DNA of 33,014 nucleotides from Acidobacteriota bacterium (GTDB taxonomy: Bacteria; Acidobacteriota; Terriglobia; Acidiferrales; UBA7541): positions 1-33,014 of the forward strand of contig QHYS01000128.1 in NCBI GenBank assembly GCA_003223325.1, given 5' to 3'. Every line of letters starts with the position of its first letter. Position 1 is the stretch's first letter. Under the pieces are notes generated by a model. The model searched no databases. It worked only from the letters and a program-made list of their open reading frames with translations, and was not told the origin of the DNA. The translations under genes were made by a program, and so were the position numbers. Of this stretch, positions 4,278-20,746 are shown piece by piece.

Positions 4278-4703
4278 TTATTCCGGCGTCGCGGATTTCT
4301 CCCGCGCCCGCTGCGGCTTTAGAATCTCGTCCATCAGAAAGAGATCCGTGAGCAGCGCGCGGAGATGGATCGACGCATTCAAGTTATCTATCAACTGGGA
4401 GCTGATGGTGGTCTGCGCCAAAACAAGCTGAATGGCGGCGAGAGAGTCTTGAGCGTCCCGTTCCAATACGTGGAGGAACGCGGAGTAAGATTTCGTGTGG
4501 TCCAGATTTGCACGTTTCACCACCGCCGCATAGGCTTCCGCAAGGCCCGAAATCGCACCGGCGGCATGCTCGAGGTAATCACGCACCTGCCCGCTGGAGG
4601 CGCTACCTTCGTCGTCGCCAGCCAGTCCTTGGCCGGCGTACGCCAGCATGAACTCATAACACTTTTCGATGGCGTCGCAGCGGGCGCTGATCTCCTCGCC
4701 CAT
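4278..4703 (-). CDS. conserved small helical protein, last gene of the Mo-hydroxylase operon (141 aa)
   Basis: Its ATG (4703) lies 2 nt after the TAG of the cytochrome b gene, so the two are probably translationally coupled. The Shine-Dalgarno sequence is poor, which fits coupling. The protein appears all-helical and soluble: an N-terminal segment with a Cys and KCYEFMLAYAGQGL, a middle YLEHAAGAISGLAEAY, and a very regular C-terminal helix (LAAIQLVLAQTTISSQLIDNLNASIHLRALLTDLFLMDEIL). There is no signal peptide, TM helix or metal-binding cluster beyond scattered His. I cannot assign a family. From its position it could be an assembly or chaperone factor for the molybdoenzyme or for the cytochrome b. 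It converges on the broken glycosyltransferase gene, whose stop is only 7 nt away. Confidence 0.72.
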   Translation of the reverse strand: MGEEISARCDAIEKCYEFMLAYAGQGLAGDDEGSASSGQVRDYLEHAAGAISGLAEAYAAVVKRANLDHTKSYSAFLHVLERDAQDSLAAIQLVLAQTTISSQLIDNLNASIHLRALLTDLFLMDEILKPQRAREKSATPE

Positions 4704-4705
4704 CT

Positions 4706-5584
4706 CTAGGCTGGAACCCTGGACTTTGATCCTCCCGCGGCTCCGGCCTCGGGCGCTTGTTCGCCCACGGGCCAGCGCTGCGGATCGTGATGCTCCAGGT
4801 ACTTCTCGCGGCTCATCCATCCGAAGATCATTGAGTTGGTGATGAAAAACTTTTCCGGCCTGAGCGCGAAGTACACATGAGCTATGATGAGAGCGACAAG
4901 GGCGATGCCCGCGAGCCCGTGCAGCACGTACATCCAGCCCCACGTCGCGTCACTGAAGCCGAACAGGTAGGGATCCCGAGTGAAGAAAGGCGTACGCACC
5001 CTGCTCATCATCAACACACCTGTCCCGATGACAGCGAGACCGGCGCACAAAATGGCAAGGTGGTAGAGTTTGTTTTCCAAGGGATACTTGCCGAACTTTC
5101 TCGGCGCAGGAGCGGCCTGACCGAGGGCGCGTCGGAGTCGTCTGGCTGCGTCCTCGATGTCCACTCGATCGGGCCAGATCGACCAAAAATCGAGCCAGAA
5201 GGTCGCGTGGAAGAGGTGATAGATGACGGAGATGGTCAGCACGACGCCGGCGATCCAATGATAGGTGACCCACGCGAATCTGACTCCCATTTTCGGGAGG
5301 AAAGCAGTGAACAGCAGCGCGAACATGGCGAGCGCCATGACTCCATGGAAGAGTCGTGCACCGAAGGAGTGCCGGGCGACCCGTTCGGGGACACGCGAAG
5401 CGATTCCTGTGCCCACGGCCTCGCGCGAATGCGCTTCCGCAGATTTTGCCCAATACCCCACGTAGAGGGCATGAACGACCAGAAACAGCAGGCCTCCGAT
5501 TGCGGACACCCACAAAAGTCCAAAGGAGATGTGGATGGGAACTTCTCTACCCCACGGACTTGTAGCCCACTGTATTAGGCCCAT
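4706..5584 (-). CDS. membrane cytochrome b subunit (formate dehydrogenase gamma-like)
   Basis: The 292-aa protein has about five TM helices (roughly residues 18-40, 79-96, 106-127, 173-193, 217-240). His residues within or at the ends of the helices (H80, H109, H123, H126, H175, H222, H236) match the pattern of di-heme b-type cytochromes of the formate dehydrogenase gamma/cytochrome b561 kind. These take electrons from a redox enzyme and pass them to quinone. The C-terminal part (AHVYFALRPEKF...MIFGWMSREKYLEHHDP) is typical of this group. The ATG overlaps the FAD-subunit gene by 10 nt, so the proteins are made together. In context it is the probable membrane anchor and electron acceptor of the molybdenum hydroxylase, replacing NAD. 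The final 20 residues are a low-complexity Gly/Ala tail. Confidence 0.85.
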   Translation of the reverse strand: MGLIQWATSPWGREVPIHISFGLLWVSAIGGLLFLVVHALYVGYWAKSAEAHSREAVGTGIASRVPERVARHSFGARLFHGVMALAMFALLFTAFLPKMGVRFAWVTYHWIAGVVLTISVIYHLFHATFWLDFWSIWPDRVDIEDAARRLRRALGQAAPAPRKFGKYPLENKLYHLAILCAGLAVIGTGVLMMSRVRTPFFTRDPYLFGFSDATWGWMYVLHGLAGIALVALIIAHVYFALRPEKFFITNSMIFGWMSREKYLEHHDPQRWPVGEQAPEAGAAGGSKSRVPA

Positions 5585-6588
5585 GCTGCCTGCTCCACGC
5601 CGCCTATGGCGCGCTTCACTAGGTTTCTCATAAGCGGAATTTTGTAAGCGTTGAACCGCAACGGCCGCGCGCCCTGCACGGCCAGTCTTCCAGCTATTTC
5701 TCCGGTGGCGGCGTTCGGCTCTTTGCCGCGAACAGCATCTTCCACCGCAGCGAGCCGTAGCGGCCGAGCAGCCGCAGCATTCACCGCCAGCCGGATGCGC
5801 TCAATTTTGCCCCCGGTGATGACCATGGCCGACGCCACATTCATGAGCGGGAAATCCCACACATTCCGATCGCGCACTTTTTCAAAATAGAATTTAGCCC
5901 CAGCCCAATCCGCCGGCAGACGGATCGCCGTCAGAAGATCCCCTGGTCGCAGAATGTTCATCCGCGTTATGTCGGTGCCCGGGCCAATAAAGTAGTCTTC
6001 CGCGTCCACTACGCGCTCGCCTTTCGGGGTGCGAATCACAAACTTGGCGTCGAGCGCAATCAGGGCAGGCGCGGAGTCTGACGGGTTCACTGCCACACAA
6101 CGATCCGCCCCCAGAATCGCGTGCTCGCGGTTGATCGCCGTCGGCGTATCCGCAAAGCAGGTGTTCCCCCCGGCACGATAGCAAGGCCAGCCCGCGCGGT
6201 AATACCAACAGCGCGTGTCTTGCGATACGTTTCCGCCGATCGTGCCCTGGTTGCGAATCTGCGGCGAGGCCGCCGCTTCGGCTCCCGTTGACAAGATGCC
6301 GTATTTTCCACGGATGACGGGATGTCGCACTACCTCCGTCAACGTGGTCGTCGCCCCTATCTCCAGGCCACCGTTTGCCTCGCGGATTCCGCTCAGTTCT
6401 CTGACTTGGCTTAGATCGACCACGACTTTCGGGCGCTTGATGCGATCCTTGAGCCAATCGAAGGTGTCCAGGCCACCCGCCATTACCCAGGCATCTTCAC
6501 GGTACTGACCGAGCAACCGCACCGCATCGTCGACCGTCGGCGGTTGAAAGAGTTCAAACGCCGGCATCACATCATGTATCACGGCCAT
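5575..6588 (-). CDS. Mo-hydroxylase FAD-binding medium subunit with four-Cys insert
   Basis: This is the FAD subunit of the xanthine dehydrogenase/CO dehydrogenase family (337 aa, typical 290-330). It has the PCMH-type FAD fold at the N-terminus (VMAGGLDTFDWLK), the second FAD motif ATIGGN-like QGTIGGNVSQ, and the CO_deh_flav_C domain at the C-terminus. The unusual part is a loop just after GGNVSQDTRC with four Cys at 127, 136, 144 and 164, followed by CVAVNPSDSAPALIALDA. The same 'DTRCxYY...C...G..C...RCxAV..SD.APAL' architecture carries an extra [4Fe-4S] cluster in the beta subunit of 4-hydroxybenzoyl-CoA reductase. The start at 6588 is preferred over the upstream in-frame GTG at 6615 because AGGAGG lies 8 nt before it. 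It is third in the operon. Confidence 0.9.
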   Translation of the reverse strand: MAVIHDVMPAFELFQPPTVDDAVRLLGQYREDAWVMAGGLDTFDWLKDRIKRPKVVVDLSQVRELSGIREANGGLEIGATTTLTEVVRHPVIRGKYGILSTGAEAAASPQIRNQGTIGGNVSQDTRCWYYRAGWPCYRAGGNTCFADTPTAINREHAILGADRCVAVNPSDSAPALIALDAKFVIRTPKGERVVDAEDYFIGPGTDITRMNILRPGDLLTAIRLPADWAGAKFYFEKVRDRNVWDFPLMNVASAMVITGGKIERIRLAVNAAAARPLRLAAVEDAVRGKEPNAATGEIAGRLAVQGARPLRFNAYKIPLMRNLVKRAIGGVEQAAWA

Positions 6589-6648
6589 GTTTCCGTCCTC
6601 CTGCGCTCTCTCCACTTGGTCTCTATTCCGTCGCGCTCAAGGTTTGAC

Positions 6649-9168
6649 TTAAATGTGCGCCGTCAACGGCTCTTGCATCGGCCGGCCCGCTTCCAGCGAC
6701 GCCAGAATGGTGTCGGCGTTCACCGGCGCGCGCCGGAACACCTCGTCACCCAGGGCGTCGGATAAGGCGTTCAAGATTGCGGCGCAGCCGCCGCCGACGG
6801 GCGGCTCGCCGATGCCGCGGGCACCAATCGGCGTTTCCGGATCCGGGATGCCGACCGCCGCCCACTGCATCTTTTGCGGTATATCCAGGATCGTTGGCGG
6901 CTTGGTGTGGTGGAATCGCTTGGCCACGGGTAGTCCGTAGTGCTGGTCATAAACCCACTTCTGGCCGATGGCGTGGCCAATGCCCAGTATCGACCGTCCG
7001 AGAATCTGGCCGCCCAAAGCATTCGGATGAATCACTGTGCCGACGTCGGCGTAGGCGAGGAAATCGACGATACGATACTGACCCGTTTCGAGGTCAACTT
7101 CGACCTCGGCAAACGTGGCGACGTAGGAATGCGTAACGCCATCCCGCGGGTAACTGTCCTTGGCCACGGCCAACAGGCCCTGGCCGGCGAGCGCTGTGGC
7201 CGATGCGACAGTAAATTTATTGATGTCCTTAGGCAGTTCGTGGCCGTCGTAGATGCCCCCGAGCTGGATAGCGCGCTTAGCCGCTTGTGCCAAACTCATT
7301 CCTGGACCGCCGCCCTTGCGGACGACGCGCTCGTTCGCAACTTCGTAATCGTCGGGCTTGCCGCCCAAATCCCTTGCCGCGATCTCCTGCAGCTTCTTCC
7401 TAGCGTCCATGGCCACCGCATGCGCGGCGCGCGTCATCGCGTGAGTCGTCTGGCTGCCGCCAGAAGGACAAGCCCAGGGCAGGTTCTTCGCTGAATTGCC
7501 CCATGTAATCTCACACTTCTCCCAAGGCACACCGACTAACTCCGCAACCACGCGGTGTACGTCGTGTACCGACTCCGTTCCGAGATTCCCGATTCCCGAC
7601 TGGATGTAGAGCCGGCCATCGGGCTTGATGACAAAAAGACCATCGAAACCGATGGAGCCGCCGACGTAGCAACTGCTCGATACGCCGACGCCGCGCGCCG
7701 TGGTACCGCTTCGCTTCGGTAACGCTTTTCTCTCATCCCACTTGAACATCTCGGAGCCCCTATCGAGCGCTTCCTTGAGGAAGGCGCTCGTGGCGTAGGC
7801 TTGCTTACCGGCTATCAGTGGTCCGAATTTCGCTTTGCCCTCAGGCGCATTGATGCGCCGGATGGCGACTTGATCGATCCCGAGCTTTCGCGCAGCCTTC
7901 GCCATCAGGGGCTCCATAAGCGCGATTCCCTGCATGCCTCCCGGTGAGCTCTGCGCACTGCGCGGTGGCGTATTCGTGAGGACCGTAACCGCGCGCCAGC
8001 GCATCGCCAGCGGCTGGTATAGCAGCGAAACGATGCGGCCCGACGAAGCAGCATCCCCTACTTGGTCGTACGGTCCGTTGTCGCAGATCACGAACATATC
8101 GAGAGCTGTGATCCTGCCTTCTTTGGAAAAACCGACCTTCATGCGGCCGTGGAAGCCGGGACGCCCGCGACCGATGTAGTGCTCTTCCTCGCGGCTGATG
8201 CGCATCATGACAGGCATGTTGGTCTTCTTCGCCAGAAGTGCGGGGATAATCAGCGAGATGGCGCCTGTTATCTTGCTGCCGAAACCGCCACCTGTGTACT
8301 CACTGATGAAAACGACATTGTCGGGACTGATGCCTAGCCATCGCGCGATCGCTGGGACGGCTTGGGCGGTGCTCTGTGCCCCGCTGTGTACGAAGACCTT
8401 GCCGTTCTGCCAGTAGGCCATGGCAGTCCGCGTTTCCAGGCACTGGTGGCTCGAATTCGGGGTGACAAACGTCTCGTCCATCACGAGCGCCGCGTCCTTG
8501 AATCCCGCCTCGAGATCGCCAACCGTCCATTCATCGGTCGCCTTGCCCATTGGCAGGCGACCCTCCTTGGCCTCCGCGAAGTCCGCTTCAGTCCACTTGA
8601 GCACCGCGACATCGGGAGGAACCACAGCGGGCGGCCGTCCCGGCGTAGCGGGTGGTTGAGCGCCCCGCACCCAAACGTTTCCATCCGTTCTAGCGTTCGG
8701 CCCGCCCGGCCGCAGACTAACCAGCGGATCCACCACGAATGGCAGCGGTTCGAGGTCCAGGCGAATCTTTTCGATCGCGTCCGCAGCAGTGACTTCATCG
8801 ACCGCGGCCACAGCGAGGATCGGATCACCCTGGTACAGCGGCTCCCTGGTGAGTCCGCGATCTCCTCGCTTGTTTGCCAGAATCACAGTGCCGTTGTCGT
8901 TGATGCTGTCGGCCGGAGGGGGTAGCTCGTCTGCGGTGAGGATCGCTTTGACGCCGGGCATCGCCAGCGCCGCGCGCGCATCGATGCTCCTGACGCGAGC
9001 GTGCGGCATGGGGCTGAGCAGCAGTTTGCAGAAGAGCATGCCGTCCGCCCGATAATCCTCCGCGTACTTCGACCGACCTGTCACCTTCGCGTAGAGGTCG
9101 GGCGTTGTGTAGTTCTTGCCGATCAGTTTGTACTTGTTGTACTTGTTCGCCGGCACATTATTAGACAC
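6649..9168 (-). CDS. Mo-hydroxylase molybdopterin-binding large subunit
   Basis: The 839-aa protein belongs to the xanthine dehydrogenase/aldehyde oxidase large-subunit family and binds the molybdenum-pterin-dinucleotide cofactor that hydroxylates the substrate with water. Visible landmarks are the N-terminal a/b hammerhead (VTGRSKYAEDY...PHARVRSID), GGGFGSK at 293-299 (Mo-pterin contact) and the C-terminal GARGIGEP with the catalytic Glu at about residue 788. The loop that in xanthine dehydrogenase reads RGFG is here SSPGGMQG (407-414), so the substrate-orienting Arg is absent. A long insert (about 150-215) is rich in Pro/Gly. It starts with GTG at 9168, 6 nt after GGAGGG, and overlaps the stop of the iron-sulfur subunit by 8 nt (GTGTCTAA). 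No signal peptide is present, so export would need to be as a complex with the Tat-tagged small subunit. Confidence 0.92.
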   Translation of the reverse strand: MSNNVPANKYNKYKLIGKNYTTPDLYAKVTGRSKYAEDYRADGMLFCKLLLSPMPHARVRSIDARAALAMPGVKAILTADELPPPADSINDNGTVILANKRGDRGLTREPLYQGDPILAVAAVDEVTAADAIEKIRLDLEPLPFVVDPLVSLRPGGPNARTDGNVWVRGAQPPATPGRPPAVVPPDVAVLKWTEADFAEAKEGRLPMGKATDEWTVGDLEAGFKDAALVMDETFVTPNSSHQCLETRTAMAYWQNGKVFVHSGAQSTAQAVPAIARWLGISPDNVVFISEYTGGGFGSKITGAISLIIPALLAKKTNMPVMMRISREEEHYIGRGRPGFHGRMKVGFSKEGRITALDMFVICDNGPYDQVGDAASSGRIVSLLYQPLAMRWRAVTVLTNTPPRSAQSSPGGMQGIALMEPLMAKAARKLGIDQVAIRRINAPEGKAKFGPLIAGKQAYATSAFLKEALDRGSEMFKWDERKALPKRSGTTARGVGVSSSCYVGGSIGFDGLFVIKPDGRLYIQSGIGNLGTESVHDVHRVVAELVGVPWEKCEITWGNSAKNLPWACPSGGSQTTHAMTRAAHAVAMDARKKLQEIAARDLGGKPDDYEVANERVVRKGGGPGMSLAQAAKRAIQLGGIYDGHELPKDINKFTVASATALAGQGLLAVAKDSYPRDGVTHSYVATFAEVEVDLETGQYRIVDFLAYADVGTVIHPNALGGQILGRSILGIGHAIGQKWVYDQHYGLPVAKRFHHTKPPTILDIPQKMQWAAVGIPDPETPIGARGIGEPPVGGGCAAILNALSDALGDEVFRRAPVNADTILASLEAGRPMQEPLTAHI

Positions 9169-9805
9169 GGTTAGCCCTCCTCAAATTCTCCGCACCGCGC
9201 ATCATGGCATTGAGAATTTTGTCGTAGTCCTGACACCGGCAAAGATTGCCGGAAATTCCGTGCGCGAGCTCCGCTCGGCTTGGGTTCGGATTGGTTTTCA
9301 AATAGCCCACCGTCGCCATGATGAAACCCGACATACAAAACGCGCACTGAAAGCCCTGCTCATCAATGACTCCCTGCTGTACCGGATGCAACTTGCCGTC
9401 GGCGCTAGCCAGCCCTTCGATCGTCACGATATTCTTGCCCCGCACCGTGTGCGTCAGGATCGAACAGGAATAGTGCGGCACGTCGTCAATCAGCACGGTG
9501 CAAGCGCCGCATTCCGAGCGGTCACATCCGATCTTCGTGCCGGTCAGACCCAGCTTGTAACGCAGGGTTGTCGCCAGAGTCTCTTGCTTCATGACGTCGA
9601 CGCGACGCTGCTGGCCATTGACCGTCAGCGTGACCAAGCGCTCCACAGCACCGGGAGCGGATGTCTGGGACCACACCGCAGATGCGCGGAACAGATAGCT
9701 CGCCGAGGACACTGCGCCTGCCGCGATGACGCCCTTGATGAGGTCGCGTCTGGAAACAACGAGCGGAGTTGAGGTAACAGGTTGCTCTATCTCATGATCT
9801 GCCAT
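9161..9805 (-). CDS. Mo-hydroxylase iron-sulfur small subunit with Tat signal
   Basis: This 214-aa protein carries electrons from the Mo site through two [2Fe-2S] clusters. The N-terminal plant-type ferredoxin domain has C94, C99, C102 and C114 (GCDRSECGACTVL). The C-terminal helical domain has C154, C157, C189 and C191 (CAFCMSGF and GNLCRC). All eight ligands are present. Unlike cytoplasmic relatives, it has a 50-residue N-terminal extension with a twin-arginine motif SRRDLIKG (R19-R20), a hydrophobic Ala-rich segment and a small-residue region (FRASAVWSQ) where cleavage could occur. This indicates Tat export of the folded complex. It is the first gene of the operon. The ribosome binding site is only a G-run (GGGGG, 6 nt before ATG), and the promoter lies 30-60 nt upstream. 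Confidence 0.92.
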   Translation of the reverse strand: MADHEIEQPVTSTPLVVSRRDLIKGVIAAGAVSSASYLFRASAVWSQTSAPGAVERLVTLTVNGQQRRVDVMKQETLATTLRYKLGLTGTKIGCDRSECGACTVLIDDVPHYSCSILTHTVRGKNIVTIEGLASADGKLHPVQQGVIDEQGFQCAFCMSGFIMATVGYLKTNPNPSRAELAHGISGNLCRCQDYDKILNAMMRGAENLRRANRV

Positions 9806-9832
9806 CGGAAGCCCCCAGATGGATTTAGATTG

Positions 9833-9862
9833 GGTATACGCCTATACCTGACGGTGTGTCAA
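9833..9862 (-). promoter_or_regulatory. sigma70-type promoter of the Mo-hydroxylase operon with overlapping inverted repeat
   Basis: On the minus strand a perfect -35 TTGACA (9862-9857) is followed after 18 nt by TATACC (9838-9833) as -10. The -10 is one arm of a perfect inverted repeat GGTATA-CGCC-TATACC (9833-9848), which fits an operator whose occupation would block or remodel the promoter. It lies 28 nt before the ATG of the iron-sulfur subunit. No regulator gene is adjacent in the window. The divergent gene at 9972 shares this intergenic region. Confidence 0.5.
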
Positions 9863-9971: not shown

Positions 9972-10865
9972 ATGTCGAAAGCTTTTTTAATCGCGACAAT
10001 TGCTTGTGTTGCGGCCGTGACGCTCTCCTCGCTTATCTACGCTCAGAAGACTCAAACCACGGAACAAACCACCACGGGAAGTAATCCCTACATCGGTACA
10101 CCCGTGGACGGCTGGACGGGACAGCCTGTTCCGCAGACCGCGAGCCAGGCGGCAACTCCGGTTCCGCGCGATGACATCTTTGGGGTTTGGGACCCCGGGA
10201 ATGGCGGAATCCAGGCCATGGGTGCGGCAGCAATGCCCGAAGACGGCAAGCCGGAGCATAAATTACCCTATACTCCTGCGGGCTTGGCGGCGCTGAATCT
10301 CACCAAGCCCAGCAATGGAGCCAGAAGCGTTCTTCCCGGAGAAACGAATGATCCCGTGGTCGCCTGTAATCCGCAGGGAATCCCCCGCGAAGACCTTTAT
10401 GAACTAAGGACCACTCAAATTGTGCAAACGCCCGCGAGCGTTCTGGTCCTATACGAGTATGGAAAAATATGGCGCACCATCTGGACCGACGGACGGGACT
10501 TCCCTAAGGATCCCGCACCCAGGTGGTTTGGATATTCGATCGGCAAATGGGAGGACGACTATACGTTCGTCGTGCAGACTTGCTGCATCAATGACGAAGT
10601 CTGGGTCGACAGGGCTGGTCGCCCACACAGTCCTGATCTGCGCGTCGAGGAGCGCTTTCACCGCGCGGATTCCAATACGTTAGAACTCACGGTGACGATT
10701 AATGATCCGGCGATGTACACAAAACCTTGGATCGCTCTCAATAAGCTGCCCTTCAAGCTGCAATCGACGCACTTCGATGTCATGGAGATGATGTGCTCGC
10801 CTGCGGAGCTTGCGGAGTACAACAAATTTATCGGTGACCCTGCGAGCGACAAAGGTAGCAAATAA
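9972..10865 (+). CDS. secreted protein of an Acidobacteria-rich family (TDGR/GKWE family), unknown function
   Basis: The 297-aa protein has a clear signal peptide (residues 1-24, ending IYAQ) and AAGGAG 7 nt before its ATG. The mature part starts with a Thr/Gln-rich linker and then carries the block IWTDGRDFP...RWFGYSIGKWEDDYTFVVQT...EVWVDRAGRPHSPDLRVEERFHR...LELTVTINDPAMYTKPW. This matches the conserved core of an expanded family of exported proteins in acidobacterial genomes, for which I know no established function. The gene at 19389-20264 encodes a second member with the same order of motifs. The gene is divergent from the Mo-hydroxylase operon and transcribed alone, followed by about 280 nt (10866-11143) in which I see no feature. 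Confidence 0.82.
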   Translation: MSKAFLIATIACVAAVTLSSLIYAQKTQTTEQTTTGSNPYIGTPVDGWTGQPVPQTASQAATPVPRDDIFGVWDPGNGGIQAMGAAAMPEDGKPEHKLPYTPAGLAALNLTKPSNGARSVLPGETNDPVVACNPQGIPREDLYELRTTQIVQTPASVLVLYEYGKIWRTIWTDGRDFPKDPAPRWFGYSIGKWEDDYTFVVQTCCINDEVWVDRAGRPHSPDLRVEERFHRADSNTLELTVTINDPAMYTKPWIALNKLPFKLQSTHFDVMEMMCSPAELAEYNKFIGDPASDKGSK

Positions 10866-11143
10866 AATCGGGGGATGCACCGCCCTTATGGCCGCCGGGC
10901 CGCCGCGGCTGCGAACTTATCCAGCAGAAGTCACGACGTAATCAGAGCTACTGATGGGCATCTTCATTCTGCCTACTCGCAGTGTGTGCTCTTGTCATAG
11001 TCAGTCCGTTGGACGGGACATTGCATCGCCTCGGAACTCGGCGGTAAGCTGCCAGTGGCAGAGCTTCTGCAAAATGTGTGAGTAGTAAAATGGCGGCGGT
11101 TGTTGGTGATCCGCAGGGGTTACAGAATTTGAGGAGCAAAGAA

Positions 11144-12457
11144 ATGGCGAAGTATCTGAAGACCACCATTCCCGCGGCAGAGATCGAAGCGGCAAATAAC
11201 CAGGTCCAAGGAACCGTCGCCAATCTGATCGCTGAGATAAAAATGCGGGGTGATGTAGCCTTGCGGGAACTCTCGACAAAGTTCGATGGCTGGTCACCCG
11301 TAAGTTTTCGCTTGTCGCAGGCCGAGATCGATTCTTTGCTTGCTTCCGTTTCGCCGCGAACCATCGAAGACATCGAATTTGCACAAGCGCAAATCCGGAA
11401 TTTCGCCGAACACCAAAAGGCCGCGCTGAAAGACATCGAAGTCGAGACGTTGCCCGGTGTACGCCTCGGCCACCGCAACATTCCCGTGAACAGCGTGGGA
11501 TGTTACATCCCGGGCGGGCGCTATCCGATGGTTGCGTCGTCGCATATGACCATCGTCACCGCCAAGGTGGCCGGCGCGCAGCGGGTTATTGCCTGCACCC
11601 CGCCTACTGGCGGAAAGCCGCACCCGGAGACGGTGGCCGCCATGGTGCTGGCCGGAGCGGATGAGATTTACATTCTCGGTGGCGTTCAGGCCATAGCCGC
11701 TATGGCGCTCGGCACCGAAACGATCGCTCCCGTGGATATGCTGGTCGGCGCGGGCAATGCCTATGTCGCCGAGGCGAAACGCCAACTCTTCGGCCAGGTG
11801 GGAATTGACCTGCTCGCGGGCCCTACTGAAATCCTTGTCGTCGCGGACGATTCAGCAGACGTGGCGTTTGTGGCCGCGGACCTGCTTGGGCAGGCCGAGC
11901 ATGGCCTCACTTCGCCCGCGGCCTTGATCACAACGTCGGAGGCGCTGGCGCAATCCCTGCCGGCGGAAATCGAACGCCAGCTCAAAACTCTTCCCACCGC
12001 AGAGATTGCCTCTGTCTCCTGGCGGGATTACGGCCAGATTATTTTGGTTGCTGATCTCGCTGAGGCGGTCCAGGAAGCCGACCGGCTCGCTTACGAGCAC
12101 GTCGAGATTATGACCCGCAATCCGCGTTACTTCCTCGAACATATGCGCAACTACGGCTCTCTGTTTCTTGGTCCCGAGACCAACGTGGCCTATGGCGACA
12201 AAGTGATCGGCACAAACCATACGCTTCCCACTCGCCGCGCGGCTCGCTACACGGGCGGACTTTGGGTTGGCAAATTCATGAAAACCGTTACGTACCAGCA
12301 GTGCACGGAAGAAGCGAGTTTACAGATAGGAGAGTATTGTTCGCGTCTCTGCGCGATCGAAAGATTTTGGGCACACAAAGAGCAGGCGGATATTCGGCTG
12401 CGCCGCTATGGCAAACCCAAGGTGAGTGTCGGCACCAGTTCGGGAGACGCGCAATAA
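11144..12457 (+). CDS. histidinol dehydrogenase-family oxidoreductase, probably a catabolic alcohol dehydrogenase
   Basis: The 437-aa protein keeps the HisD zinc ligands and catalytic residues: Q250 and H253 (GQAEHG), E318-H319 (YEHVEI), D352 (GDKVIGTNH) and H411 (AHKEQADIR). It is therefore probably an active Zn- and NAD-dependent dehydrogenase oxidising a primary alcohol to a carboxylate. The segments [19 protein letters not shown] and SWRDYGQII, and the absence of any other his gene nearby, fit the side branch that includes sulfopropanediol 3-dehydrogenase (HpsN) better than true histidine biosynthesis; this is inference. The start at 11144 is chosen because GAGGAG lies 7 nt upstream; in-frame codons further upstream have no ribosome binding site. 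An SDR gene follows 29 nt downstream, suggesting a two-dehydrogenase catabolic unit. Confidence 0.85.
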
Positions 12458-12486
12458 AATCCACGCCCGAAGCTACAGCAATCCCC

Positions 12487-13245
12487 GTGAGTTTCCGGCT
12501 CGATGGCCGCGTCGCACTGATCACTGGAGCGGGCCGCGGCATCGGCGCAGCGGGAGCACTGGCTCTCGCCGAAGCCGGGGCGGAGGTGGTCTTAGTCAGC
12601 AGAACGCGCAGCGAACTCGAACAGGTTGCCAAGCCCGTCACTGACGCGGGAGGCAAGGCGCGCGTAATCGTTTGCGACGTGACCAAGCGCGAGGAGGTGA
12701 ATTTCGCCCTCGCTAGCATCGAGCGGCTGGACATCTTGTTAAATAACGCTGGAATGAATATTCCCGAACCCTTCGTCGATGTTTCCGAAGCTCATTTGGA
12801 CGATATGATCTCCCTTAATGTCCGCGCCGCGTTCCTGGTCTCACAGGCTGCCGTACGAAAAATGCTTCAGCATCCCGATCGCCGGAAGCAAGGCGGCAGC
12901 ATCGTCCACATGACCTCCCAAATGGGGCGGGTCGGGGCAGAGCGGCGCACGGTGTACTGCATGGCCAAGCATGCGATCGAAGGTTTAACCAAAGCCATGG
13001 CCGTCGAACTCGCGCCTGAAAACATCCGTGTGAACGCCATCGCTCCCACGTTTCTCGAAACGCCCATGACCGCTTCCTTCTTTGCGGACCCTGAATTCCG
13101 CAATTGGGTCATCAGCCGAATTCCGCTCGGGCGCATCGGGCGCATGGATGAGGTCACCGGCGCCATCATCTTCCTGGCGTCTCCGGCGGCGTCCCTGATC
13201 ACAGGCACGAGCTTGGCAGTCGATGGCGGCTGGACCGCGCGTTGA
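12487..13245 (+). CDS. short-chain dehydrogenase/reductase (SDR)
   Basis: The 252-aa product is a classical SDR: TGAGRGIG (residues 13-20) for dinucleotide binding, NNAGMN after strand 4, the catalytic Ser in HMTSQMGRVG, YCMAK (Tyr-x-x-x-Lys) and the C-terminal GTSLAVDGGWTAR. Arg after VLVS suggests NADP could be accepted, but this cannot be settled by eye. The start is taken as GTG 12487, which gives the standard length; no in-frame ATG lies between the previous stop and the Rossmann motif, and the ribosome binding site is weak, as expected for a gene coupled to the one before it. Such enzymes commonly act on sugar-acid or polyol intermediates. The partner dehydrogenase upstream supports a catabolic role. 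A fragment of an amidohydrolase follows immediately. Confidence 0.88.
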   Translation: MSFRLDGRVALITGAGRGIGAAGALALAEAGAEVVLVSRTRSELEQVAKPVTDAGGKARVIVCDVTKREEVNFALASIERLDILLNNAGMNIPEPFVDVSEAHLDDMISLNVRAAFLVSQAAVRKMLQHPDRRKQGGSIVHMTSQMGRVGAERRTVYCMAKHAIEGLTKAMAVELAPENIRVNAIAPTFLETPMTASFFADPEFRNWVISRIPLGRIGRMDEVTGAIIFLASPAASLITGTSLAVDGGWTAR

Positions 13246-20326: not shown

Positions 20327-20746
20327 CTATTTCGGTGCGGGGTCCTCAGGCTGCGGGCGATTGGCGCCAAATGCAACCTTGCGCCCATTCGCAAACGTAA
20401 GTTCCTGCACCCATGCAAAGGCCCCGGTTCCATCCTTCGCGCGATAAGCGAGCACCGTGACGGTGTCACCGATTACGAAGTCATCTCTTGTGAGGCCAGC
20501 GCGATGCATGAACCCGGTCGGAATGGATTCCAGAGTCCAGTTGGTCACCTTGCCGCTGTCGTCTTTCACATCCAGGTAGAAATAGATATGAGGGTTAATC
20601 CAGTCTATTTTTGACAGGGTTCCCTTCAACGTGACCGCTTTGCTCGCATCGAACTCGGCTTGAAAGGAATGGTGCGCCCAACCAGGCAGTGTGGCCAGTA
20701 GCGCACAACTCGCCAGCAAAATAGCGAAGAAGTTGCGTTTCATCAC
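20327..20746 (-). CDS. DUF6152-family small exported protein
   Basis: The 139-aa protein has a signal peptide (MKRNFFAILLASCALLATLPGWAH) and starts its mature part with HHSFQAEFDASKAVTLKGTLSKIDWINPHIYFYLDVKDDSGKVTNWTLE. The N-terminal HHSF and the 'G-x-(V/L)-x-x-x-x-W-x-N-P-H' motif are the hallmarks of DUF6152, a small OB-like beta-barrel family of unknown function found beside the TDGR-type proteins. Conserved His residues at the mature N-terminus and in NPH could bind a metal. A GTG (20746) directly precedes the ATG at 20743; GGAGG lies 7 nt before the GTG, so either could be used. The 153 nt between it and coaE holds no gene. Confidence 0.85.
   Translation of the reverse strand: MMKRNFFAILLASCALLATLPGWAHHSFQAEFDASKAVTLKGTLSKIDWINPHIYFYLDVKDDSGKVTNWTLESIPTGFMHRAGLTRDDFVIGDTVTVLAYRAKDGTGAFAWVQELTFANGRKVAFGANRPQPEDPAPK

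Follow-up and report, generated by a model that had tools for sequence, protein, structure and literature searches.

A conserved acidobacterial gene cassette encoding a putative Tat-exported molybdenum hydroxylase, an FdnI-type cytochrome b and a new small helical protein

4-Hydroxybenzoyl-CoA reductase (HBCR) works reductively with ferredoxin in the cytoplasm, and the membrane aldehyde dehydrogenase of acetic acid bacteria (PDB 8gy3) has a c-type cytochrome subunit and no flavin adenine dinucleotide (FAD) subunit. PaoABC from Escherichia coli is a soluble trimer with a twin-arginine translocation (Tat) leader on PaoA; it does not use nicotinamide adenine dinucleotide (NAD), and its electron acceptor was unidentified as of 2014 (PMC3958847). 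The FAD subunit of PaoABC contains an extra [4Fe-4S] motif of four conserved Cys, which has been called characteristic (PMC13404670). Here we describe a cassette of five genes that encodes a putative molybdenum hydroxylase together with a membrane cytochrome b. It was found in a stretch of 33,014 nucleotides (the window, whose positions serve as coordinates throughout) from a soil Acidobacteriota bacterium (Terriglobia; Acidiferrales; UBA7541; GCA_003223325.1, contig QHYS01000128.1, positions 1-33,014). We consider it likely that the product, a member of the xanthine oxidase family, is a molybdenum hydroxylase that would work in the periplasm as part of respiration and reduce quinone via a [4Fe-4S] cluster and a di-heme cytochrome b. 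The variant is real and conserved, within an enzyme class already known, and apparently undescribed: a literature search restricted to open-licence articles found no paper on this gene combination.

The five genes are tightly packed on the minus strand, from 9805 down to 4278, in the order iron-sulfur (FeS) subunit, molybdenum subunit, FAD subunit, cytochrome b and orf5. The original prediction, made from the letters of the window, had described five coupled genes at this place; its observations are confirmed in detail, and Pfam now assigns the first four genes. The features are the following:

9161..9805, minus strand: predicted small subunit with two [2Fe-2S] clusters and an N-terminal twin-arginine signal (P0001, 214 residues; Pfam and PDB matches).
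9665..9805, minus strand: predicted Tat signal region, residues 1-47, with the motif V-S-R-R-D-L-I-K (TAT_signal match at residues 17-33, conserved RR).
6649..9168, minus strand: large molybdenum-cofactor subunit (P0002, 839 residues, GTG start; Pfam and PDB matches, Glu788).
5575..6588, minus strand: medium FAD subunit (P0003, 337 residues, ATG start, with a longer GTG frame from 6615; Pfam and PDB matches).
6097..6210, minus strand: Cys4 loop C127-x8-C136-x7-C144-x19-C164, a predicted [4Fe-4S] site (invariance, PaoB/ALOD alignment).
4706..5584, minus strand: membrane cytochrome b of the FdnI/Ni-hydrogenase type with about five transmembrane helices (P0004, 292 residues; PF01292, model match, His).
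4278..4703, minus strand: orf5, a soluble all-helical orphan protein, accessory to the cassette (P0005, 141 residues; conserved core).

The FeS and molybdenum genes overlap by 8 nucleotides, 60 nucleotides separate the molybdenum and FAD genes, the FAD gene shares with cytochrome b exactly the 10 nucleotides first reported, and a gap of 2 nucleotides precedes orf5. A genome collection was scanned with cytochrome b as the sole query, which leaves the detection of the enzyme genes unbiased. The scan returned 43 loci, nearly all from Acidobacteriota, plus one from Binataceae and one record labelled Deltaproteobacteria. FAD sequence, or the end of that gene on short contigs, lies directly before cytochrome b in 41 of the 43. 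The five-gene count was restricted to loci with no less than 4.3 kb of DNA upstream, 33 in all with L037 and L050 among them, and all five genes are present in 30, the exceptions being L050, without orf5, L020, with the FAD tail only, and L051, where the cytochrome stands alone. Gene order is kept apart from L037 and L050, in which the molybdenum gene is the last. L020 is a decayed or misjoined copy, in which the last 45 FAD codons precede cytochrome b and orf5 and no FeS or molybdenum gene lies upstream. A split FAD match in L027 (frameshift or assembly error) was left out of the counts, and the apparent deletion in the FAD gene of L031 was rejected as a lost insert because the gap consists of unsequenced bases. 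A plasmid search with cytochrome b gave no match.

Profile searches with orf5, cytochrome b and the FAD subunit were then extended to 396 Acidobacteriota genomes. The FAD subunit was found in 39, cytochrome b in 40 and both in 37, a co-occurrence with a hypergeometric probability of 4e-46, shared ancestry ignored. Among the three cytochrome-only genomes, G116, G237 and G077, a partial FAD gene adjoins cytochrome b in the first two. The FAD copies of the clade were set by their bimodal scores (48 copies above 510 bits, the remainder below 311 bits), and 38 of these 48 have cytochrome b directly downstream on the same strand, mostly at a spacing of -7 to +16 nucleotides. The co-occurrence across genomes that the original prediction proposed to look for is thus real, and the cassette is conserved across Acidobacteriota and Binatota, far beyond chance. 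Its core comprises four genes, with orf5 as a lineage-level accessory, because orf5 was not found across the whole genus g76, which has the four-gene core.

The membrane subunit gives an indication of where the electrons might go. P0004 matches PF01292 (Ni_hydr_CYTB; 3.1e-20, 73.1 bits vs a cut-off of 30.1), and a search of the PDB with its structural model (predicted local distance difference test, pLDDT, of 82) gave a single clear match, FdnI (1kqf_C, E 1e-5, probability 1.00), in agreement with the quinone-linked cytochrome b first proposed. The equivalog cut-off of the formate dehydrogenase gamma model TIGR01583 is missed (40.4 vs 115.9 bits). Helices are found at residues 21-45, 74-99, 105-130, 169-193 and 212-241, and basic stretches follow the first, third and fifth of them, so that the last four have FdnI topology. 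Ten His are invariant (38, 72, 80, 109, 123, 126, 175, 222, 236 and 266), among which H80, H109, H222 and H236 fall at the positions expected for the four heme ligands of FdnI; H222 and H236 are 14 residues apart, as are the last two ligands in FdnI. As modelled, the likeness to FdnI and the placement of the His support a putative electron route from the periplasm to quinone.

The same cytochrome b family is also found divergent from a pyrroloquinoline quinone (PQQ)-type quinoprotein dehydrogenase gene, without a molybdenum hydroxylase (L086 9511-12838, L051 5392-8849, L053 1-2512), the PQQ-type assignment having been made by eye from the sequence. This arrangement suggests that the cytochrome may also be the quinone module of another type of dehydrogenase in the periplasm.

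The small subunit P0001 contains Fer2_2 (1.8e-25) and Fer2 (1.8e-6), both above cut-offs, and its PDB matches are HBCR gamma and PaoA. Its Tat tag, already noticed in the original prediction, is upheld by the SRRDLIK motif and by R19-R20, invariant in 33 sequences, with a weak Pfam TAT_signal match (15.4 bits vs a cut-off of 22.7). P0002 carries MoCoBD_1 (2.8e-57), MoCoBD_2 (2.4e-41) and Ald_Xan_dh_C, above cut-offs, and matches HBCR alpha (1rm6_A, on top), ALOD and PaoC in the PDB. The catalytic Glu788, in a G-x-G-E motif, is invariant (34/34) and aligned with the Glu of PaoC and HBCR. By these family assignments, the predicted enzyme belongs to the xanthine oxidase (molybdenum hydroxylase) family. 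The active-site loop of this subunit reads NTPPR-xx-Q-[S/R]-x-P-G-x-x-Q; the loop Arg common to PaoC, HBCR and others is kept in 14 of the 34 members, and Ser is found in the other 20, the window's included. Residues ~157-215 of P0002 (window ~8524-8700) form a conserved insertion, longer than that of HBCR, at the boundary between the hammerhead and the first molybdenum-cofactor domain. Its invariant residues are R160, G163, N164, K191, G203, P206 and W214, and it might possibly be an interface with the cytochrome.

The FAD subunit P0003 matches FAD_binding_5 (3.7e-46) and CO_deh_flav_C, above cut-offs, and 5y6q_B, 1rm6_B and 5g5g_B in the PDB. It has four Cys in total, at 127, 136, 144 and 164, and none of them varies in any FAD subunit of the clade whose sequence covers the loop; the insert is genuinely conserved. 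No cytochrome b gene was found beside an FAD subunit with lost loop Cys, a combination that was sought as contrary to the original prediction. The four Cys pair one to one with C119/129/138/157 of PaoB and with those of ALOD (5y6q_B), and the loop pattern shared with PaoB and 5y6q_B is TRC, the next Cys 9-10 residues on, then 8-9, then ~20. The cluster Cys of HBCR (C122/138/146/155) are not matched in this way: C146 falls on a Glu, and Cys136 has no HBCR counterpart. The insert, initially described as benzoyl-CoA-reductase-type, is better read as Pao-type. The pairing of Tat tag and insert, initially considered unusual, is not so either, since E. coli PaoABC has both and so do two further enzymes without a cytochrome b gene in the same genome (paralogues L075 and L076); the pair was accordingly rejected as diagnostic of cytochrome-linked enzymes. 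A further Tat-tagged paralogue in the window's own genome (C172; L074 6336-7325) has an FAD subunit with three Cys, the fourth being lost, as it is in L046 (14999-15964).

The likeness to HBCR raises the question of the direction of electron flow. Quinol could, through cytochrome b and the [4Fe-4S] cluster, drive a reduction, e.g., the dehydroxylation of an exported aromatic. Among NCBIfam models those for HBCR give the top scores for the molybdenum and FAD subunits (321 and 181 bits), 1rm6_A is the top PDB match of the former, whose sequence scores nearer HBCR than PaoC, and reductive members of the family exist, i.e., HBCR itself and the urolithin C dehydroxylase Ucdh (PMC12771579). However, all HBCR cut-offs (TIGR03193/03194/03195) are far from reached (152.6 vs 257.8, 321.1 vs 994.6 and 181 vs 404.6 bits), and the Cys spacing is unlike that of HBCR. 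Moreover, quinols are poor electron donors for a dehydroxylation, and CoA esters do not occur in the periplasm; we regard such reverse operation as quite improbable.

Ten close FAD relatives have no adjacent cytochrome b gene, and all four Cys are kept in each of them. In the tree these copies are nested inside the cytochrome-bearing clade, at least four changes being needed. Eight of the ten sit in genomes with cytochrome b elsewhere, as would suit its being shared in trans. The remaining two belong to G159 and G293, and in G293 the FeS and molybdenum genes of the clade were also not found beside the FAD gene. Because the motif persists in these ten copies, the Cys4 site is not cytochrome-specific, contrary to the role first attributed to the insert; it is ancestral and not bound up with the cytochrome.

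In five of the copies without adjacent cytochrome b, a small lipoprotein gene directly follows the FAD gene, in the position otherwise occupied by cytochrome b (L092 6322-6741, L093 6289-6816, L096, L099 and L100). The same lipoprotein family, with the motif W..G.W.G...QT.......HS..SGRP, is found near four cytochrome-type loci (L022, L035, L038 and L049).

The distribution of these copies can also be explained by a soluble enzyme that, like the PaoABC trimer (PMC3958847), would use diffusible acceptors, with cytochrome b being independent and either co-transcribed by chance or serving several periplasmic dehydrogenases. The changes in the tree between copies with and without adjacent cytochrome b agree with this explanation, as do the cytochrome b relatives divergent beside PQQ-type dehydrogenase genes without a molybdenum enzyme (L051, L053 and L086). 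Nevertheless, the near-complete co-occurrence in genomes (37/39), the mostly tight junctions and the location of eight of the ten copies in genomes with cytochrome b elsewhere, which fits its use in trans, make it unlikely. A different exit is also conceivable, in which the [2Fe-2S] subunit would pass electrons directly to the cytochrome, with a Cys4 cluster that is structural or ancestral and off the path, given that Cys4 is conserved with or without an adjacent cytochrome b gene, and in PaoB. The overlapping or abutting FAD and cytochrome b genes fit instead with their products being partners, and the HBCR cluster in the same subunit has reportedly been interpreted as an electron port; we find the exit through the [2Fe-2S] subunit improbable.

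Some observations weigh against the quinone-linked enzyme that we prefer. G159 has the enzyme and no cytochrome b was detected there. PaoABC and the copies without adjacent cytochrome b also have the Cys4 site, which therefore does not have to be where electrons leave, and the cytochrome b family also stands beside PQQ-type dehydrogenase genes. In addition, R440 of PaoC, which we take to be an active-site residue, is not conserved, P0002 having Ser499, so that an aldehyde substrate is a guess from the nearest relatives. It is proposed by default, the closest enzymes that share this Cys site being aldehyde oxidases.

In the quinone-linked mechanism that we favor, the molybdenum subunit, the 2x[2Fe-2S] subunit and the subunit bearing FAD and [4Fe-4S] would fold in the cytoplasm and be exported jointly by means of the small subunit's Tat signal, in the manner of PaoABC. 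The trimer would dock at the periplasmic face of the FdnI-type di-heme cytochrome b and oxidize its substrate, for which an aldehyde or some similar organic compound is the likeliest candidate. Electrons would run from molybdenum through the two [2Fe-2S] clusters in turn to FAD, [4Fe-4S], the periplasmic heme b, the cytoplasmic heme b and finally quinone, and orf5 would be a cytoplasmic assembly or proofreading factor for the enzyme. Since PaoABC works without NAD and with an acceptor not yet identified (PMC3958847), a dedicated quinone module would suit a periplasmic enzyme. The more specific proposal of an undescribed respiratory complex, in which the [4Fe-4S]-bearing periplasmic enzyme sits on the FdnI-type cytochrome b with the cluster as electron exit to the quinone pool and orf5 as a dedicated maturation factor, seems to us evenly balanced between right and wrong.

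The orf5 product has no Pfam, NCBIfam or PHROG match, and it defines a new, uncharacterised family of small helical proteins with the conserved core YEFxLAYA..QG / SSQxxDNLNASxHxRxxLT. Its model is helical (pLDDT 84), neither a signal peptide nor a membrane helix is apparent in the sequence, and a Foldseek search gave no match at E <= 0.001; a second look at the fold returned generic four-helix bundles only, with Z ~10-11, values that are to be expected of helical bundles. The gene occurs in 26 of the 396 genomes, 25 of them with the cytochrome, and stands beside the cytochrome b and FAD genes in 20/20 loci read for it. The XdhC/PaoD domains PF02625 and PF13478 have no match in orf5, and XdhC (PF02625, PF13478) is absent from the 377 contigs of the window's genome, probably owing to an assembly gap. 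A role of orf5 as replacement for XdhC was rejected, since XdhC is present in 23/23 other carriers tested. System-specific chaperones exist and provide a model for its role (PMC2997495); by analogy, the likeliest function would be that of a cytoplasmic maturation, assembly or proofreading factor.

Most loci have no recurrent neighbors beyond the cassette that could serve as a substrate clue. In the window, it is flanked by HisD-like and short-chain dehydrogenase genes on one side and by a glycosyltransferase-type gene on the other. The HisD-like gene is followed by the short-chain dehydrogenase gene at 11078-13242 (plus strand), with no histidine operon around them within the window. An exported-looking protein without family (9972-10865, plus strand) and a DUF6152 protein (20330-20746, minus strand) recur near some cassettes; this acidobacterial pair is seen near L011, L035, L045 and L050, side by side in L035.

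If the quinone-linked reading is true, PaoABC-like periplasmic molybdenum hydroxylases would have a concrete acceptor in one lineage, and FdnI-type cytochromes would serve a second, unrelated family of molybdoenzymes. The link of a molybdenum hydroxylase and a b-type quinone-reducing cytochrome in one operon makes the question of the PaoABC-type acceptor testable, and it ties a large soil phylum to the periplasmic respiration of an organic substrate, while orf5 represents a new family of small proteins that merits study as a maturation factor.

Compared with known systems, the cassette shares with PaoABC (PDB 5g5g) the three-subunit molybdenum/FAD/FeS enzyme, the Tat signal on the small subunit and the order of the four Cys in the FAD subunit at an almost equal spacing (127/136/144/164 vs 119/129/138/157). 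PaoABC lacks a membrane subunit, whereas the cassette has cytochrome b and orf5 after the FAD gene, and its gene order is A-B-C-D with the chaperone PaoD, while the cassette has no PaoD-like gene. The NCBIfam equivalog cut-offs for PaoA and PaoC are missed (139.3 vs 322 and 251.5 vs 1180 bits), and in the tree the Pao set forms its own clade with 100/100 support, the window's FAD subunit falling outside. HBCR from Thauera (1rm6) has the best NCBIfam score for the molybdenum and FAD subunits and also an extra [4Fe-4S] cluster in the FAD subunit; in contrast, it is cytoplasmic and ferredoxin-linked, has its ligands at other positions (C122/138/146/155) and lacks a Tat signal and cytochrome b. 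By every cut-off the predicted enzyme lies outside both the Pao and HBCR families, in a clade of its own. With FdnI (1kqf_C) the similarity lies in a Ni_hydr_CYTB membrane di-heme cytochrome b that connects a periplasmic molybdoenzyme to quinone, the model of P0004 matching that structure, but P0004 has an extra N-terminal helix and 19% identity, and its partner is a xanthine-oxidase-family enzyme instead of the dimethyl sulfoxide (DMSO)-reductase-family enzyme of FdnI. The combination of Tat tag, insert and cytochrome b, regarded as unusual in the original prediction, is so in its cytochrome b module only: the Tat tag and the extra cluster were already known, and what is new with respect to PaoABC is the b-type quinone module and orf5.

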